Shown here: positions 39-7,630 of the stretch, piece after piece
How positions within the stretch are numbered: the first letter of the stretch is position 1
Layout of the letters: the number at the start of each line of letters is the position of its first letter
Source of the DNA: Xylanibacter rarus
GTDB taxonomy: Bacteria > Bacteroidota > Bacteroidia > Bacteroidales > Bacteroidaceae
DNA length: 45,254 nt
NCBI RefSeq assembly: GCF_001275135.1
Contig: NZ_LFQU01000026.1
Location: 1 to 45,254, forward strand
Direction of reading: 5' to 3'
Made by a program: the position numbers and the translations under genes
Notes under the pieces: generated by a model
Database searches by the model: none
Told to the model about the DNA's origin: nothing
What the model saw: the letters and a program-made list of their open reading frames with translations, nothing else

Positions 39-1532
39 ATGGATAAAGACGAAAGTAAAGACAGCTACGGACATGTGCTGAAATATACTGGAATATTCGG
101 CGGCGTACAGGGACTCAACATCATCATCGGCCTTGTACGCAACAAGATTACGGCCCTGCTGCTCGGCCCTGCCGGCATGGGACTGGCGTCGCTGCTCAAC
201 TCTTCGGTCAACTTTATCTCGCAGGCCACCAACCTCGGAATATCCTTCAGTGCGATAAAGCACATATCAGAACTCTACGATCAGGGCGACACAGAAGGCA
301 TGGAGCGCTTCATCAGGATTGTCAGGGCATGGAGCCTCGTGGCTGCACTGCTCGGCATGCTCGTGTGCATAGCCGCCGGACCGCTGCTCAACAGCCTCGC
401 CTTCTCGTGGGGCGACCACACGCTCCACTTCATGCTGCTCTCGCCTGCCGTGGCGCTGATGGCCATAACGGGCGGCGAGACGGCCATACTGAAGGCCACA
501 CGACGGCTAAGGGCGCTCGCCGTGGTGCAGATATGGTCGGTCATAGCCTCGCTGCTGATATCCGTGCCCATATACTGGATGTTCAGATGGACCGGCATCG
601 TGCCCGTGATAATACTCATGGCGCTTGCCACGATGATAATAACGGTGGTGTATTCTTACAGGGCTTATCCGCTGCGGCTCAGCGGAACCAAGGGCCTGCT
701 GGGCGAAGGCATGGAGATGGTAAGGCTGGGCATAGCCTTCATCATGTCGGGCATAATGGCAAGCGGAGCCGAGATGCTGCTGCGCGCGCTGCTCAACGCC
801 GAAGCCGACCTCGACATAGTGGGACTATACAACGCGGGATTCGTGCTTACGATAACCTACTCGGGCATGGTGTTCTCGGCGATGGAGACCGACTACTTTC
901 CGCGCCTGTCGGCCGTCAACCACGACAACCAGGCCATGAAGCTCACGGCCAACCGACAGATAGAGGTGTCGCTGCTCATCGTGGCACCGATGCTCACGCT
1001 GCTCATCGTGGCTCTGCCGCTGGTGGTGCCGATGCTCTACAGCAGCAAGTTTACGCCCGTGGTGCCCATGGCTCAGATAGCCGTCATGTCGATGTACCTC
1101 AGGGCCATAACGCTGCCCATAGCCTACATGACGCTCGCCAAGAGCCACTCTAAGGCCTTCTTCGTGCTCGAAACGCTGTCGGCAGCCATGCAGGTGGCAG
1201 CCGTGATGGGCGGATACCGCCTGATGGGACTGACGGGCACGGGCGCCGGACTGCTCGTATCGTATCTCTTCGAGCTGACGCTGATATACACCTATGCCCA
1301 CACACGCTACGCCTACCGCCCCTCGAAAGGCGTATGCACCTATGCCGCCATACATCTGCCGATAGGCATAGCGGCATATCTTTCAACACTTATCGGCAAC
1401 ACTCTGCTGAGCGCCTGCCTCGGCATAATGCTCACCATGGTCAGCACAGCCGCCTCGCTCTTTATCATATATAAAAAGACGTCGCTTTGGAACAGCTTGA
1501 AGGAACGGCTGAAAAAACTTCACAAGAGATAG
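39..1532 (+). CDS. Wzx-type polysaccharide flippase (O-antigen translocase family)
   Basis: This 497-residue, strongly hydrophobic protein has about 12 predicted membrane helices and a short Lys-rich C-terminus. The N-terminus (GGVQGLNIIIGLVRNKI, then LLGPAGMGLASLLNS) is the typical first-helix region of MATE/Wzx-superfamily lipid-linked oligosaccharide flippases. Such proteins move undecaprenyl-diphosphate-linked repeat units across the inner membrane for O-antigen or exopolysaccharide assembly. The ATG at 39 sits after an AT-rich leader with no clear ribosome site. Glycosyltransferases lie 2-7 kb downstream, so a surface-polysaccharide role fits, but the exported sugar cannot be told. A teichuronic-acid or enterobacterial-common-antigen type exporter is an alternative within the same superfamily. 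Confidence 0.85.
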   Translation: MDKDESKDSYGHVLKYTGIFGGVQGLNIIIGLVRNKITALLLGPAGMGLASLLNSSVNFISQATNLGISFSAIKHISELYDQGDTEGMERFIRIVRAWSLVAALLGMLVCIAAGPLLNSLAFSWGDHTLHFMLLSPAVALMAITGGETAILKATRRLRALAVVQIWSVIASLLISVPIYWMFRWTGIVPVIILMALATMIITVVYSYRAYPLRLSGTKGLLGEGMEMVRLGIAFIMSGIMASGAEMLLRALLNAEADLDIVGLYNAGFVLTITYSGMVFSAMETDYFPRLSAVNHDNQAMKLTANRQIEVSLLIVAPMLTLLIVALPLVVPMLYSSKFTPVVPMAQIAVMSMYLRAITLPIAYMTLAKSHSKAFFVLETLSAAMQVAAVMGGYRLMGLTGTGAGLLVSYLFELTLIYTYAHTRYAYRPSKGVCTYAAIHLPIGIAAYLSTLIGNTLLSACLGIMLTMVSTAASLFIIYKKTSLWNSLKERLKKLHKR

Positions 1533-1667
1533 GCACATCAGAAAAACACACCGAAAAGAATAAGCATAACGGCACTTTTCAACAAGATTTCAACATATCA
1601 TAAAAGCGTGAGCCTAAGGCCGTTACAAAACTTATCAACAAAATAAATACCATTTATCAACAAGCCG

Positions 1668-1799
1668 AAAGCACATCTTTCAGCACACGAAAAGCCACAT
1701 ATCGCAATGCAAAAAGCCACCTGTTGCAAGGCAAAAGACGGCATATCACAACACGAAAAACGCATAAAGCAACACCAAAACCGGGATAAAGCCACGCCA
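1668..1799. repeat. Six degenerate 22-bp tandem units at the edge of the putative origin
   Basis: Six consecutive 22-bp units start at 1668, 1690, 1712, 1734, 1756 and 1778. Each begins AAA(A/G) and most have GCA or CACA near position 15-18. They resemble the better-preserved 22-bp arrays at 20586, 27757 and 44551. Units become more degenerate to the right. The exact period is read directly; common ancestry with the other arrays is inferred. Confidence 0.55.
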
Positions 1800-2037
1800 C
1801 AGACCGAAAACAACGCAGAAAACGCCATGAAAACAAGCACAAACGCCACAGCGGACAAAGAACACCGAGACACTGTTGAAAACCCTGTTGATAACCATGT
1901 GGAAAACCGTTGGAAAAATATGTGGATATCAACACGCCACGCAGGCACGACATTATACACGTGTATATCAACACCTTTATACAGACAAAATAAGCAAGTT
2001 TTCAACAGATAAATGGCGAAAAAAGATATAAACTTAT

Positions 2038-2045
2038 TAAATTTG
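2038..2045 (+). promoter_or_regulatory. Possible -7 element for nadA
   Basis: TAAATTTG matches the Bacteroidetes -7 consensus TAnnTTTG and is followed by GCAG. It lies about 270 bp before the nadA start and inside the DnaA-box region. No clear -33 TTTG was seen, so the assignment is weak. Confidence 0.35.
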
Positions 2046-2318
2046 CAGTCTGACAGGAGAATTGTGGATAAGATGCCTTAACGCCTGACAGTCAGACAGA
2101 AGATATTAATGGCACATGTTGAAAACACATAACCACGGGTTGATAACGAAATAAGCAAACTTTCAGCCCTAAAGTTTTGAACAAATCAACGGCATATCAT
2201 ACAACTCATTCTCTTTTTTAAAAAAGGAAAACAAAGGATAAGAATAATTATGTGGGTGTGGAAACCTGAGGGTAACCTGAAAGCAGGACAAGCACACACG
2301 GCAAAAGAAACAAACACT

Positions 2319-3308
2319 ATGGTTAAAGAAGAATGGACAGAGAAGGGCTACATAGATGAGCCTGCTGACAACGGCACCGACCTGGCCGCCGAGATAAGAA
2401 GAATGTGCAAGGAGAAAGACGCCATAATACTGGCCCATTACTACACCGACGGATCGGTGCAGAAGGTGGCCGACTTCATTGGCGACTCGCTGGCCCTGGC
2501 GCGCAAGGCTGCCAAGACCGACGCCAAGATTATCGTGATGTGCGGCGTTCACTTCATGGCAGAGACGTGCAAGATACTTTGCCCCGAAAAGCTGGTGATC
2601 TGTCCTGACCTCAACGCCGGATGCTCGCTGGCCGACTCATGCCGCGCCGAAGACCTCAAGAAGTTTAAGCAGGAGCACCCGGGCTACACCGTGGTGAGCT
2701 ATGTCAACACTACGGCTGCCGTGAAGGCGCTGACCGACGTGGTGGTTACGAGCGGCAACGCGAAGAAGATAGTAGACCAGCTGCCGAAGGACGAGAAGAT
2801 TATCTTCGGACCCGACCACAACCTGGGCAGCTACATCAACGCCGTTACGGGCCGCGAGATGCTGCTCTGGAACGGCGGATGCCATGTGCATGAGCGCTTC
2901 TCGCCTCAGGCCATCGTTGAGATGAAGAAGGAACACCCCGACGCCATCGTGCTGGTTCACCCCGAGTGCAAGGGTCCCGTAGTGAAGCTTGCCGACGTGG
3001 TAGGCTCAACGGCAGTGCTGCTCGACTATGCCGTGGCACATCCCGACAAGGAGTATATCGTGGCAACAGAGCCGGGCATACTGTTCGAGATGCAGCGCCA
3101 GTGCCCCGACACGGTGTTCCTGCCCGTGCCTCCCGAAGTGAGCGAAGGCTCCGCAGGCTGCTCTTGCAACGAGTGTGAATACATGAAGATGAACACTCTG
3201 CTCAAAGTTTACAACGCCCTTAAATATGAATGGCCCAGCGTAGACGTTCCTGCCGACATAGCAGTCGAGGCAGTGAAGCCGATAAACCGCATGCTGGAGA
3301 TGAGCTAG
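2319..3308 (+). CDS. nadA: Quinolinate synthase NadA
   Basis: NadA condenses iminoaspartate with dihydroxyacetone phosphate to make quinolinate in de novo NAD synthesis, using an oxygen-sensitive [4Fe-4S] cluster. The 329-residue product has the three expected cluster cysteines in order: MCGVHFMAET, HPECKGP and the Cys-rich GCSCNECEYM near the C-terminus. It also has the substrate-site AHYYTDGSVQ and GPDHNLGSYI segments. The reading frame extends 23 codons upstream (to 2250), but that extension is low-complexity and unlike NadA, so the ATG at 2319 (MVKEEW) was chosen. No nadB or nadC lies beside it, so it appears monocistronic. It begins about 170 bp to the right of the last DnaA-like box. 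Confidence 0.95.
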   Translation: MVKEEWTEKGYIDEPADNGTDLAAEIRRMCKEKDAIILAHYYTDGSVQKVADFIGDSLALARKAAKTDAKIIVMCGVHFMAETCKILCPEKLVICPDLNAGCSLADSCRAEDLKKFKQEHPGYTVVSYVNTTAAVKALTDVVVTSGNAKKIVDQLPKDEKIIFGPDHNLGSYINAVTGREMLLWNGGCHVHERFSPQAIVEMKKEHPDAIVLVHPECKGPVVKLADVVGSTAVLLDYAVAHPDKEYIVATEPGILFEMQRQCPDTVFLPVPPEVSEGSAGCSCNECEYMKMNTLLKVYNALKYEWPSVDVPADIAVEAVKPINRMLEMS

Positions 3309-3319
3309 AGACTGTTCAT

Positions 3320-3502
3320 AATTAAAAATTAAAAAGTAAAAATTAAAAGGCTGGGAAGAATGAAGGGATAATAAAAAGCGGAAAACTTTAGCCGGCTATT
3401 TCATGCAAGCCGCAAAGCCGTTAGTTTCCTGACATTCCGTTCTTTCCCGCCTTTTAATTTTTGCTCCTTAATTTTTTAATTTTTACTTTTTAATTTTTAA
3501 TT
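3320..3502. repeat. MITE-like element with 25-bp perfect terminal inverted repeats
   Basis: Positions 3320-3344 and 3478-3502 are perfect reverse complements, made of AATTAAAAA-type AT-rich sequence. Pairing continues imperfectly inward (AAAAGGC.GGGAAGAA at 3345-3360 against TTCTTTCCCGCCTTTT at 3440-3455). The core of about 80 bp has no reading frame. It fills the space between nadA and the next gene and could end nadA transcription as well as being a small non-autonomous element. Confidence 0.7.
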
Positions 3503-3513
3503 CCAAAAAATCC

Positions 3514-4644
3514 GTGCGTATATTATTAATTGGTGAGGCAAGCTATCTGCACAACACTTTGAAGAAGGGACTTATTGAAGACGGTCATCAGGTGGTGCTG
3601 ATGTCTGACGGTAACAACTGGCACAACTCTCCGAGGGACATCGACCTGAAAAGAGACATGCGCTGGGGAAAGCTGAGCGGACTGAAAGTGCTGTGGCAGC
3701 TCTTGAGGCATTATAAATGTCTTGTGGGCAACGACATCGTGCAGATACACAACTATCAGTTTGTGCCGCTGAAGATGGGGTGGAACAGACATCTTATCAG
3801 CTTTCTTAAACGGCATAACAGGTATATGGTCAAGGGCTGCTTCGGCGACGACCCCGTGGTATTAGACAGTCAGGCTGAAGGAGTACCCGAATATTCGGAT
3901 ACATACTGGGACGGACGGCCGCAGAACGTTGAGCTTAACAAGGAGCGCACAGCCGAGATGAATATGGTGCCGGTGCGCCATTGCAGCGGCTTTGCCAACC
4001 GCGAGTCTGACGCTCTTGTGGCGTGCCTTTACGAATATTATCTGTGCTACCGCTCATGGCTCAGCCACGGCAAGCTGCACTATATACCTCTGCCCATAGA
4101 GATTCCTGAGGGAGCACGCGCAAAGCATATCGCCGACGGCCGTAAGCTGAAGGTGCTTGTGGGCATACAGCCCAAGCGCGACTATCTTAAAGGTGCCGCT
4201 TATATAGGGCGGCTGGTTGAGCAGGTGGCAAAGGAGAACGACGGACTGATTGAGGTTAATACGGTTGAGGGCGTGCCCTACGACGAATATTGCCGTATGC
4301 TCAGTGAGACCGACGTGCTGGTGGATCAGCTCTACAGCTACACGCCGTCGATGAATTCGCTGGCTGCCATGGCGCGTGGAACAGTGGTGATAGGCGGCGG
4401 CGAGGAAGAGTTCTATAAGTTTATCGGCGAGGACGAGCTGCGGCCTATAATAAATGTAAGGCCGGGGCGCGACGAAGACAATCTGAACACGCTGCGCCGG
4501 ACGCTGACCGACCGCAAGTTGCTGGAGAAGATGTCGCAGCAGAGCATTGATTTCGTAAAGAAGTATCACGACTACCGCAAAGTGGCGCGACAGTATGAGC
4601 ATCTGTATGAACGGCTGCTTGCCGGAGAATTTGATATCTATTAA
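3514..4644 (+). CDS. Glycosyltransferase, GT-B fold (family 4-like)
   Basis: This 376-residue protein starts MRILLIGEASYLHNTLKKGLIEDGHQVVLMSDG, the N-terminal Rossmann half of GT-B enzymes with a Gly-rich first loop. The C-terminal half (LVDQLYSYTPSMNSLAAMARGTVVIGGGEEEFY) has the position of the nucleotide-sugar site. The usual E-x7-E motif of family 4 is absent: the equivalent segment reads SMNSLAAMARG. Donor and acceptor cannot be assigned. The start is GTG at 3514, and no in-frame ATG precedes the conserved MRILLIG segment. It is transcribed alone and converges on the glycosyltransferase operon from the right, with a strong shared terminator between them. Confidence 0.8.
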   Translation: MRILLIGEASYLHNTLKKGLIEDGHQVVLMSDGNNWHNSPRDIDLKRDMRWGKLSGLKVLWQLLRHYKCLVGNDIVQIHNYQFVPLKMGWNRHLISFLKRHNRYMVKGCFGDDPVVLDSQAEGVPEYSDTYWDGRPQNVELNKERTAEMNMVPVRHCSGFANRESDALVACLYEYYLCYRSWLSHGKLHYIPLPIEIPEGARAKHIADGRKLKVLVGIQPKRDYLKGAAYIGRLVEQVAKENDGLIEVNTVEGVPYDEYCRMLSETDVLVDQLYSYTPSMNSLAAMARGTVVIGGGEEEFYKFIGEDELRPIINVRPGRDEDNLNTLRRTLTDRKLLEKMSQQSIDFVKKYHDYRKVARQYEHLYERLLAGEFDIY

Positions 4645-4712
4645 AAAGATACATCAAGCCCAAACCAATGCACACAGACTGAGGTTTTCAGCCGGATTTG
4701 GGATAAATAATA

Positions 4713-4758
4713 AAAAATAAGCTGACAGAACCGTGTTGTTGTCTGTCAGCTTATTTTT
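4713..4758. terminator. Bidirectional intrinsic terminator
   Basis: A 17-bp perfect stem (4713-4729 with 4742-4758, core AATAAGCTGACAGA) and a 12-nt loop is flanked by an A-run on the left and a T-run on the right. It can stop transcription from both strands, which fits the converging genes ending at 4644 and 4849. Confidence 0.9.
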
Positions 4759-4848
4759 GTTTATATCCTGTGTCTGTAAATAATATTCTTTTGTTCAGAT
4801 TAAATCGGCTTGTCATTATTTATGCCTTATTTCTTGCCTAAAAGCGTC

Positions 4849-5940
4849 TTATTTCTTGTCGCAAAGCGAGCCAATCAGCTCTTTCCATTTGTTCATGATG
4901 TTGTCTCGGTCAAACTTGTTGATTGTGAGCCTCGCATTTGCCCCATATTTTGCCCTGAGAGCCTCGTCGCCAGCCATGCGGATAATTGCCCGCGTGAGAG
5001 CCTCTGAGTCGTTCTGAGGCACTATAATGCCGTTGTAGCCGTCTTCTGCGATGTCTCTCGCGCCGTAGATATAGTCAACCGTCACGCAGGGCAGTCCGCA
5101 GGACTGTCCTTCGGCAAGCACGAGCGACAGCCCTTCGTATCGCGAGGTTACAATCTGCATGCTGTGGCTTGCGTAAGCCTCGTTCATGTCTTCGCACCTT
5201 CCGCGCAGCACCACCCTATCGTCGAGTCCGCACCTTGTTATCTGTCGTTGCAGTTCGTCGTGCAGCGAGCCTTCGCCGTAGATGTCGAGTTGCCAGTCGG
5301 GGCATGCCTTGGCCACATTCTTCCAGCAGTCTATCAGCAGGTCGAAGCCCTTAACGTGTTCGAGTCTGCCCACGGCTATCGCCTTTTTCACGCCATAGTC
5401 GGCCACATATTTGTCGGGCGTGTTCACAAAGTTTGGTATCACCTCCACCCTCTTTGCCGCCTTATATTCGCGTGCGTCGTCGGCTGTAAGGCACACCACG
5501 GCGTCGGCCTTTCGCTCCATTAGCCCGAACATACGGCTGTAAGGCGTGAACCTGCGTGCCGAGTGCGACTCAAATATCTTTTTTGACTTTATATTGCAAA
5601 GCGGCAAAAGCAGTGCGCTAAGCGTGGTTGCAAAGAATATTATGTCAGGGTTAAGTTCTGAAAGTGTGCTGTTTAACTTTATTGCCGCATCAGCTAATGT
5701 CTTTATTCGATTAACGGTTCTTGTTATAGTGTTATTACTTTTCTTTGCCATCGGAACATCAAGAAACAGCAGCCTGACGTTCTTGTTGAGGTTATATGTT
5801 TGGCGTGGTGTGTCGCGATATATAGAAACGATGGTTACTTCGTTTCCCCATTCTTCCGACATTATGTTTGCCTTCTCGGATATTATGCGCTCAACACCGC
5901 CACCTATATAGAAATCTTCAATAATATATGCTATTTTCAT
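4849..5940 (-). CDS. Glycosyltransferase family 4
   Basis: This 363-residue GT-B enzyme starts MKIAYIIEDFYIGGGVERIISEKA, with the GGGVER acceptor loop of family 4 retaining transferases. The C-terminal donor domain has AVGRLEHVKGFDLLIDCW, YGEGSLHDEL and the E-x7-E motif in SRYEGLSLVLAEGQSCGLP. The ATG overlaps the stop of the upstream transferase by 4 bp (ATGA), indicating translational coupling. It is the last gene of a three-gene operon ending at the terminator at 4713-4758. The donor sugar is not predictable. The N-terminal third is noticeably richer in AT than the C-terminal part. Confidence 0.9.
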   Translation of the reverse strand: MKIAYIIEDFYIGGGVERIISEKANIMSEEWGNEVTIVSIYRDTPRQTYNLNKNVRLLFLDVPMAKKSNNTITRTVNRIKTLADAAIKLNSTLSELNPDIIFFATTLSALLLPLCNIKSKKIFESHSARRFTPYSRMFGLMERKADAVVCLTADDAREYKAAKRVEVIPNFVNTPDKYVADYGVKKAIAVGRLEHVKGFDLLIDCWKNVAKACPDWQLDIYGEGSLHDELQRQITRCGLDDRVVLRGRCEDMNEAYASHSMQIVTSRYEGLSLVLAEGQSCGLPCVTVDYIYGARDIAEDGYNGIIVPQNDSEALTRAIIRMAGDEALRAKYGANARLTINKFDRDNIMNKWKELIGSLCDKK

Positions 5941-6848
5941 TGTCTTGAAATTAGTTTGAAAATTTTACAAGATAGTTTCAGACCAAATAAATTTAGCATT
6001 ACGGCTTTTATCCAGTCCTTGTTTCCTGCATAACTTTTAATCTGTATCCGTTGTGGCCAGAGTAATATTTTTCCTGTTTTTCTGTAAGAGTAAAGTTGCG
6101 ATGTCAGCATGTTGAGATAAAGCCTGTGCCAGCGCTTTTCCCGTGTGTTGAGGTTTAATTCCTTTGTCAGGCTTATTTGCGCTTCAAGCAGAGACGTAAG
6201 TCCGTTGAGGGCTTCTTTGGCAGCTATTCCGCTTTTGTTCCAGCAATAGTTGTACATGCCTTTGTCTGTTGTGGCTATAACGGGGTTGAGCTTTATAAGG
6301 CTTGCAATGTTATATACGTCTTCATAAATTTTTCCTTTTGGGAAACGCACATTGCTGAAAAGCTCTTTCCTGTATATCTTGTTCCATGCCCAGCAGTGTT
6401 CAAGGCCATTTGTCGACAGCCAGTCAAGGGCATTGTCGTATACAGTAGTACCGGGATTAAACATCCGTTCGTTTTTGCATCCGGGATTTTGCAGCACAGG
6501 ATATTCCAATATGTCGTATTCCTTATGTCCGTCTAATATAGGCATAAGTTTGGCATAAGTATTATTTTCTACAAAATCGTCGCTGTCGACAAATGTTATG
6601 TAATCTCCCGTTGACCGGCTTATTCCATAGTTGCGCGCGTCAGAAAGTCCTCCGTTAGGTTTATGAAAAACTTTTATGTTATTGTTTAGTGATGCTGCCT
6701 TGTCAGCCAGATTTCCGCTGTTGTCGGTCGAGCCGTCGTCAATTATAAGTATTTCATAATTGTCGATGCCCTGTGACAGCACGCTGTCGATGCAGCGCCG
6801 GAATGTCTTTTCTACGTTATATACCGGAATAATAATGCTTAATTTCAT
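5937..6848 (-). CDS. Glycosyltransferase family 2 (GT-A)
   Basis: This 303-residue protein has the N-terminal GT-A domain: MKLSIIIPVYNVEKTFRRCIDSVLSQ, IIDDGSTDNS, KPNGGLSDARNYGI, and the DxD-type metal site in FVDSDDFVE. The WAWNKIYRKELF and YEDVYN segments are usual for WbbL- or WcaA-like sugar transferases. It overlaps both neighbours by 4 bp, so the three transferases are translated in series. It probably adds one sugar to a surface glycan at the cytoplasmic face of the membrane. The gene is AT-rich compared with the housekeeping genes nearby, as surface-polysaccharide genes often are. Confidence 0.9.
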   Translation of the reverse strand: MKLSIIIPVYNVEKTFRRCIDSVLSQGIDNYEILIIDDGSTDNSGNLADKAASLNNNIKVFHKPNGGLSDARNYGISRSTGDYITFVDSDDFVENNTYAKLMPILDGHKEYDILEYPVLQNPGCKNERMFNPGTTVYDNALDWLSTNGLEHCWAWNKIYRKELFSNVRFPKGKIYEDVYNIASLIKLNPVIATTDKGMYNYCWNKSGIAAKEALNGLTSLLEAQISLTKELNLNTREKRWHRLYLNMLTSQLYSYRKTGKILLWPQRIQIKSYAGNKDWIKAVMLNLFGLKLSCKIFKLISRQ

Positions 6849-7555
6849 GAAAAAATGAATTTAAAAGACAGACATTTTATCACCGTCCATCTTATCATCA
6901 GCATCCGGAATAATGAATTTCCGCTCTTTACTGATGCTGTGAATGAACTGTTTCTGCCGTGACAACGAAACTGAATAAGTTTGTTTGGGATAAACTTTAC
7001 ATTGAATCTGTAGGCGGCAATGTTGCCTATCCAGATGTCGTGCATAGGTATGTCTTTCGGAAATGGTAGAGATGCCTTGAGCACCCTCTTTGTAAAGGCC
7101 ATGCAGCAGCCCATATAACCGTTTTTAATAAGGGTGTTATAAATGCGTGACTGCTTGGTGTTGTGTACTTTATAATATGATTTTTCAATAATGTTGAGAT
7201 TCTCGTCTACCATTTCTGCATCACTTATCACGCAGTCGTAATGTTTGAGATACTGCATGCAAATGCTTATTTTATTATCTTTCCAGACATCGTCTTGATC
7301 TGATAGAAATATATATCCGCCTTTGGCATGCATCAATGCGTTTTCAAAGTTTGATGTGGGTGATTTTTTTTCAGGACCTTTAATCAGCTTTATCCTTTTG
7401 TCGTCGATTTCTTTTATAATGTCTATGGTTGAATCGGTAGATTCGTTGTCAGATATAATGATTTCGTCTTCGTTACCGAGTTGATTTATTATCGAGCTGA
7501 TTTGCTCTCTGATAAATCTCTCACCGTTGTATGTGGCTATGCAGACTGAAATCAT
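6845..7555 (-). CDS. Glycosyltransferase family 2 (GT-A, rhamnosyltransferase-like)
   Basis: This 236-residue protein has a GT-A core: MISVCIATYNGERFIREQISSI, IIISDNESTDST and FLSDQDDVW with a DQDD metal-binding site. The GCCMAFTKRVL and HDIWIGNIAA segments are typical of RfaG/RgpF-associated family 2 rhamnosyltransferases, though the sugar is not proven. A TTG at 7567 would add four residues, but the ATG at 7555 begins directly at the conserved ISVCIATYNGE strand and is preferred. It is first in the glycosyltransferase operon, 75 bp after the PorZ-like gene on the same strand, and overlaps the next gene by 4 bp. Confidence 0.87.
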   Translation of the reverse strand: MISVCIATYNGERFIREQISSIINQLGNEDEIIISDNESTDSTIDIIKEIDDKRIKLIKGPEKKSPTSNFENALMHAKGGYIFLSDQDDVWKDNKISICMQYLKHYDCVISDAEMVDENLNIIEKSYYKVHNTKQSRIYNTLIKNGYMGCCMAFTKRVLKASLPFPKDIPMHDIWIGNIAAYRFNVKFIPNKLIQFRCHGRNSSFTASVKSGNSLFRMLMIRWTVIKCLSFKFIFS

Positions 7556-7630
7556 TTTATGCGACAAAAATTATCTTTATTATTATGTTTTATAATGAAA
7601 ACGTTTATCTGTTTTTGTTTTATACATCCG

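Follow-up and report, generated by a model that had tools for sequence, protein, structure and literature searches.

Does the 786-bp gap that separates a polysaccharide biosynthesis flippase gene from nadA contain the origin at which this bacterium starts to replicate its chromosome (oriC)? The question was raised by an earlier note on the sequence, in which a cluster of DnaA-like boxes in this gap was read as the chromosome origin. The window analysed here is the whole stretch of 45,254 nucleotides and constitutes contig C26 of a 3.79-Mb draft genome in 85 contigs. We conclude that the gap is very probably the oriC of a Prevotella-type bacterium: the earlier reading is supported both by the position of the element on the floor of the GC skew in relatives and by the conservation of its boxes.

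The intergenic region and its DnaA boxes

The flippase and nadA genes named in the earlier note were both confirmed by Pfam matches (Table 1), and its description of the gap as free of genes also stands: the two longest open reading frames overlapping the interior have no Pfam match above the cut-off (one has a sub-threshold match, E 0.048), and a coding gap was rejected. A nadA riboswitch or other RNA was rejected as well; the Rfam match to Mu-gpT-DE is only a sub-threshold one (E 0.0023, with 25.5 bits where the cut-off is 49) and is attributed to chance. The gap is rich in A (43% over 1533-2250), and its left half is poorly conserved among the 30 nadA loci that were compared (30 of the 147 genomes with a nadA match among 200 searched). 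Part of the A-rich left spacer (1667-1746) matches contigs C1, C2 and C4 at 76-78% identity and is possibly a dispersed repeat.

Beyond nadA, the next spacer carries an AT-rich inverted pair (3318-3360 and 3467-3500) with matches on C2, C4, C6 and C60. It is followed at 3514-7567 by glycosyltransferase-like genes, one with a Pfam match just under the cut-off and the others recognised by eye, which suggests that a polysaccharide cluster adjoins the origin.

Table 1. Features of the proposed origin and its two neighbouring genes (positions in the window).
Feature	Position	Strand	Evidence or remark
Flippase for polysaccharide biosynthesis, left neighbour	39..1532	+	Pfam PF13440 (Polysacc_synt_3), E 9.9e-15
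Proposed oriC, entire intergenic region	1533..2318	.	17 DnaA-box-like 9-mers (at most two mismatches), as many in 0 of 1000 shuffles; no protein family above cut-off
Left outlying DnaA boxes at 1576 (TTTTCAACA), 1632 (TTATCAACA) and 1654 (TTATCAACA)	1576..1662	+	In the poorly conserved part
Phased DnaA array at 1874, 1886, 1898, 1909 (weak) and 1921	1874..1929	-	Boxes read as 5'-TTWTCMACA-3' type on the - strand
DnaA box TTTTCAACA, -23 from core, pointing inward	1999..2007	+	TTTTCMAC between -35 and -8 in 76 of 109 loci
Core AAAGATATAAACTTATTAAATTTGC, AT-rich and conserved; candidate unwinding element	2022..2046	+	Contains TAAATTTG (2038-2045)
Perfect DnaA box (TTATCCACA on - strand), +41 from core, pointing inward	2063..2071	-	A box recurs at +40/+41
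Right DnaA boxes at 2117 (TTTTCAACA) and 2138 (TTATCAACC)	2117..2146	-	Offset +94 recurs in 13 of 100 loci
nadA, quinolinate synthase, right neighbour	2319..3308	+	Pfam PF02445 (NadA), E 7.3e-119

DnaA boxes are far more numerous in this non-coding region than expected by chance. When the gap (1533-2318) was compared with 1000 dinucleotide-preserving shuffles of itself, 9 boxes of the TTWTCMACA type were observed (shuffles: mean 0.08, largest 2), 6 boxes with at most one mismatch (mean 0.23, largest 2) and 17 with at most two (mean 2.52, largest 10), and no shuffle reached any of these three counts. A cluster with boxes in both orientations, as previously described, is indeed present: 15 matches with at most two mismatches start within 1568-2250 (at 1576, 1632, 1654, 1874, 1886, 1898, 1921, 1926, 1953, 1965, 1977, 1999, 2063, 2117 and 2138). 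The box at 2063, TGTGGATAA, had been recorded as perfect and is so; it is the only perfect TTATCCACA box within the whole window.

The phased array of four strong boxes and one weak box in a single orientation (1874-1929) was likewise recovered where the earlier note had placed it. The strong 9-mers are TGTTGAAAA (1874), TGTTGATAA (1886), TGTGGAAAA (1898) and TGTGGATAT (1921), and the weak one, GTTGGAAAA at about 1909, has three mismatches as read by eye. A pattern of two boxes 12 bp apart, with one mismatch allowed, was searched for in 16 whole genomes. The present genome has two matches, both exact and both in the gap (1874 and 1886), and no other 12-bp array was found at this tolerance in the 3.79-Mb draft. 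Over the 16 genomes there are 38 matches, including 14 exact ones in 11 genomes; in 10 of these 11 all exact matches lie beside the conserved core described below, and the eleventh genome (G075) has no core match at one mismatch or fewer. It is mainly the exact matches that carry weight, because those with one mismatch occur at scattered positions in addition to the origin, and because the reversed pattern, serving as a control, also finds matches (10 in G084, one in each of G024, G061 and G195).

A conserved core between inward-pointing boxes

Alignment of the 30 nadA loci revealed a highly conserved AAAAAGATATAAACTTatTAa-TTTGCA, followed by tTGTgGATAA approximately 40 bp from the start of the stretch. 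The corresponding core in the gap is AAAGATATAAACTTATTAnnTTTGC (2022-2046). DnaA boxes usually point into this core from both sides, as do those at 1999 (+) and 2063 (-) in the window.

The distribution of the core was determined with a 19-mer, one mismatch being allowed, in 198 genomes of the genus. It was found in 98 of them, and the reversed pattern, used as a control, gave 3 matches in the same 198. The element is single-copy: the core occurs once in the present genome, where the array too is found here alone, and 95 of the 98 genomes have the core at one place only. At this tolerance the core is absent from 100 of the 198, G117 among them, and has therefore diverged in many lineages. A few matches may be due to chance, such as that in G299 (L184), which has almost no boxes around it and looks like a chance match. 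As an exact 25-mer the core occurs at no fewer than 119 places in the named genome collection. The titles among the matches listed name Prevotella, Prevotellaceae or split or close genera in 76 of 80 cases (we take Segatella, Hoylesella, Leyella, Xylanibacter and Marseilla to be genera split from or close to Prevotella); of the others, two are Bacteroidales, one is Bacteroidaceae and one is Bacillota. This last contig (L279) carries the core exactly and is perhaps misbinned. Presence of the core, together with the genus searches, indicates that the present organism belongs to the Prevotella group.

Box geometry around the core recurs in relatives. Among the 119 listed core loci, 100 have 400 bp on both sides, and these contain a mean of 4.67 strict boxes per 800 bp around the core (range 1-9), compared with 0.107 outside. 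A box is located at +40 from the core in 77 of the 100 and at +41 in 10, and two same-direction boxes 11-13 bp apart lie no more than 220 bp upstream of the core in 65. With a looser flank limit, which admits 109 loci, the upstream TTTTCMAC motif (Table 1) is absent in 33, and a box between +25 and +62 is present in 95 and absent in 14. Comparison of the region upstream of nadA among relatives had been suggested as a check on the earlier reading: relaxed boxes are present there in all 30 genus loci, the present one included, and boxes are conserved around the core in the 100 loci as well.

The earlier description of a stretch beside the boxes as AT-rich is fair in kind and overstated if taken as extreme: the 50-bp windows examined between 1990 and 2020 rank in the bottom 1.6-6.6% of the window for stability, and the lowest stability in the gap occurs away from the core, in a stretch that begins at 2200 (0.7%). 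By predicted stability, an easily melted AT-rich element (the core) thus lies by the boxes, with the stretch at 2200 less stable still. The Bacteroidetes -7 promoter motif is TAnnTTTG, and we take TAAATTTG in the core (2038-2045) to resemble it. A possible -33 element, TTTG or TTG at roughly the expected distance, was seen in 58 of the 109 core loci, a count made without a control; because this element is not clear, promoter activity of the core remains a suggestion.

GC skew, dnaA and the link to nadA

The minimum of the cumulative GC skew, proposed in the earlier note as a check, was sought in relatives. Skew was calculated from sampled 20-kb stretches and detrended in five genomes: G024, G045 and G117, which are single-contig relatives with nadA, G016, in which nadA was not found, and G084, in which nadA has moved. 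The element (in G024, G045 and G016) or nadA (in G117) lies at the very bottom, at a height of 0.00 of the skew amplitude, and the height of dnaA is 0.48 in G024, 0.39 in G045, 0.40 in G117 and 0.21 in G016. In G045, the most densely sampled, the minimum is at 2.771 Mb and the element at 2.764 Mb. The G117 record ends 0.2 kb past the nadA start, so that the gap spans the record ends; in this record of 3.455 Mb the minimum is computed at 3.404 Mb. In the dense profile of G024, local minima of almost equal depth occur near 1.44, 1.50 and 1.52 Mb. In G016 the detrended curve has its computed minimum at 0.42 Mb and then stays level as far as the element (0.66 Mb). The skew of G084 is too weak to be decisive, with only a lean toward the element: its minimum is at 0.47 Mb, with heights of 0.22 for the element, 0.76 for dnaA and 0.80 for nadA.

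As the earlier note had observed, dnaA is not in the window; it is located on contig C1. In G024, G045, G117 and G016, dnaA is separated from the element or nadA by 0.70-1.24 Mb, the shorter way round, and the dnaA loci of 14 genomes (L040-L053) have 0-3 strict boxes in 2.6-3.5 kb. An origin at dnaA was rejected, since the skew is not lowest there and the dnaA loci are without box clusters.

nadA is the gene downstream of the core in 106 of the 119 listed loci (DUF3108 in 7, contig end too early in 5, unassigned in 1), and the left neighbour is a glycosyltransferase family 9 gene in 16. Core and nadA positions were also compared in 40 genomes, namely those up to G199 with a core match (G044 is represented by one of its three core/nadA pairs, and G052 and G195 each by one of two core places). 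In 32 of them nadA follows the core at a distance of 213-2246 bp (median 232); in six it is elsewhere (G010, G017, G084, G124, G132 and G146), and in two (G003 and G016) a search at E<=1e-60 did not find it. In G044, perhaps a mixed assembly, nadA is present three times (at L025 and two other locations; 74-77% identity to the query), and the three contigs concerned also bear three core places.

This proximity, together with the promoter-like motif within the core, would also be expected of a datA- or DARS-like regulatory region of nadA that titrates DnaA or is controlled by it, with the origin being elsewhere. Such a region is very unlikely in view of the eight genomes in which core and nadA are not linked: the seven that were read (L167, L175, L180, L185, L186, L188 and L189; G003 was left out) all retain the upstream box at -148 or -147 and another at +40. 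Furthermore, in G016 the element lies on the floor of the skew despite the failure to find nadA in that genome, and no second 12-bp array was found in the present genome. Because the core and its boxes are retained in genomes whose nadA is elsewhere or was not found, we regard the gap as an origin and not merely a nadA control region; judging from these sequences, the origin follows its own core element and not nadA. In two relatives assembled in two contigs, G146 and G132 (L185, L186; L042, L045), the core and an exact array are on C1 and dnaA and nadA are on C2, and on that C2 the 12-bp array was not found at one mismatch or fewer.

Evenly spaced repeats in the same direction are also reminiscent of iterons, and core and dnaA are on different large contigs in some relatives, as might be seen if the gap were the origin of an integrated plasmid, a conjugative element or a second replicon. 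We consider this highly improbable: the repeats consist of DnaA-box sequences, the neighbourhood as far as tested comprises three genes (a flippase, nadA and a glycosyltransferase-like gene), and the element keeps its place before nadA in the great majority of the listed loci (the 106 given above). Chance clustering in an A-rich spacer with a poorly conserved left half, the least credible explanation, is refuted by the shuffle counts and by the box enrichment around the core in relatives, where array and core are both conserved.

Proposed initiation and comparison with known origins

In the DnaA paradigm, DnaA is loaded, forms a filament and opens AT-rich DNA, onto which the helicase is loaded; the mechanism that we infer for this chromosomal origin is based on it. 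DnaA-ATP would bind the strong boxes and fill the 12-bp phased array as a directional filament, and the inward boxes at 1999 and 2063 would place DnaA on both sides of the core. The core would then melt first and receive the helicase, with forks leaving both ways. Transcription from the promoter-like TAAATTTG, directed toward nadA, may aid melting; a coupling between the origin and nadA transcription is speculative. The melting site could instead be near 2200, because stability within the gap is lowest there.

E. coli oriC has TTATCCACA-type DnaA boxes by an AT-rich melting region and does not adjoin dnaA, and the element in the window is similar in all of these respects. It differs in its 12-bp same-orientation array, approximately 90-150 bp from the core, and in its inward flanking boxes. 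B. subtilis oriC also has a box array beside an AT-rich melting region; in contrast to the element described here, it flanks dnaA, and it has a DnaA-trio unwinding system. A trio of this type (a 3'-GAT-5' run by a DnaA box) was rejected for the core: none of 109 loci has a TAGTAG run, on either strand, at a distance of 60 bp or less from the core, and a relaxed (TA[GA])x3 was found near it in 2 of 109, on one strand.

Origins distant from dnaA are already known in this group: on chromosome I of Prevotella intermedia OMA14, the oriC predicted by Ori-Finder lies away from dnaA at a GC-skew transition, and according to its authors Bacteroidetes oriC are commonly far from dnaA; they also state that the start of replication on the second P. 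intermedia chromosome is not known (PMC4755523). The chromosome I oriC and the element in the window are alike in having multiple DnaA boxes, a skew transition and a position not near dnaA; the passages of that paper concerning this oriC give coordinates alone, with no neighbouring gene, array spacing or conserved core (PMC4755523). What is new here is the architecture of the core and the link to nadA. In titles and the openings of abstracts, we found no description of a nadA-linked Prevotella origin, its core or its geometry; DoriC may list it.

Prevotella is an abundant genus of the gut, rumen and mouth that is hard to manipulate. The core and array provide a sequence handle for locating the Prevotella origin even in fragmented genomes, and the location of the origin is needed both for growth-rate estimates from read depth and for chromosome maps. 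The element is a case of origin architecture being kept while the neighbouring gene changes, and it offers a compact, well-delimited sequence on which DNA opening by DnaA can be studied in Bacteroidota.

Outside the genus, the stretch before nadA was examined in a family set of 28 loci from other genera (57 of 61 genomes matched and 30 loci were returned; L400, of the genus itself, was dropped and L114 was moved to the order set) and in an order set of 30 loci from 30 families (52 of 60 genomes matched, 30 loci returned). Several family loci come from one genus and are thus non-independent. In G419, a single-contig genome of another genus, nadA is located at 3.205 Mb and dnaA at 4.039 Mb. In the 500 bp before nadA (414 in L128), the family set has 37 relaxed boxes compared with 4.7 expected from shuffles (largest pooled shuffle 11), and the order set has 49 compared with 6.9 (largest pooled shuffle 14); the first 500 bp of nadA itself contain 1 and 2 boxes, respectively. 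The Prevotella core is unrecognisable in the 30 order loci, with best matches upstream of 14-20 of 28 versus 16-20 in the gene or downstream and with L116 and L128 out of register.

From these sequence counts, a nadA-linked origin throughout the Bacteroidales is possible. A more specific proposal, which we put forward as a doubtful one, is that the Bacteroidales origin would be anchored at the nadA promoter and not at dnaA, with the promoter-like core acting as the melting element between inward boxes and firing coupled to transcription of nadA, a gene of NAD synthesis. Taken singly, loci without a box number 6 of 28 in the family set (four of the five from genus g70, plus the only locus from each of g61 and g69) and 9 of 30 in the order set, and those that stand out (no more than 5 of 100 shuffles) number 13 of 28 and 15 of 30, respectively.
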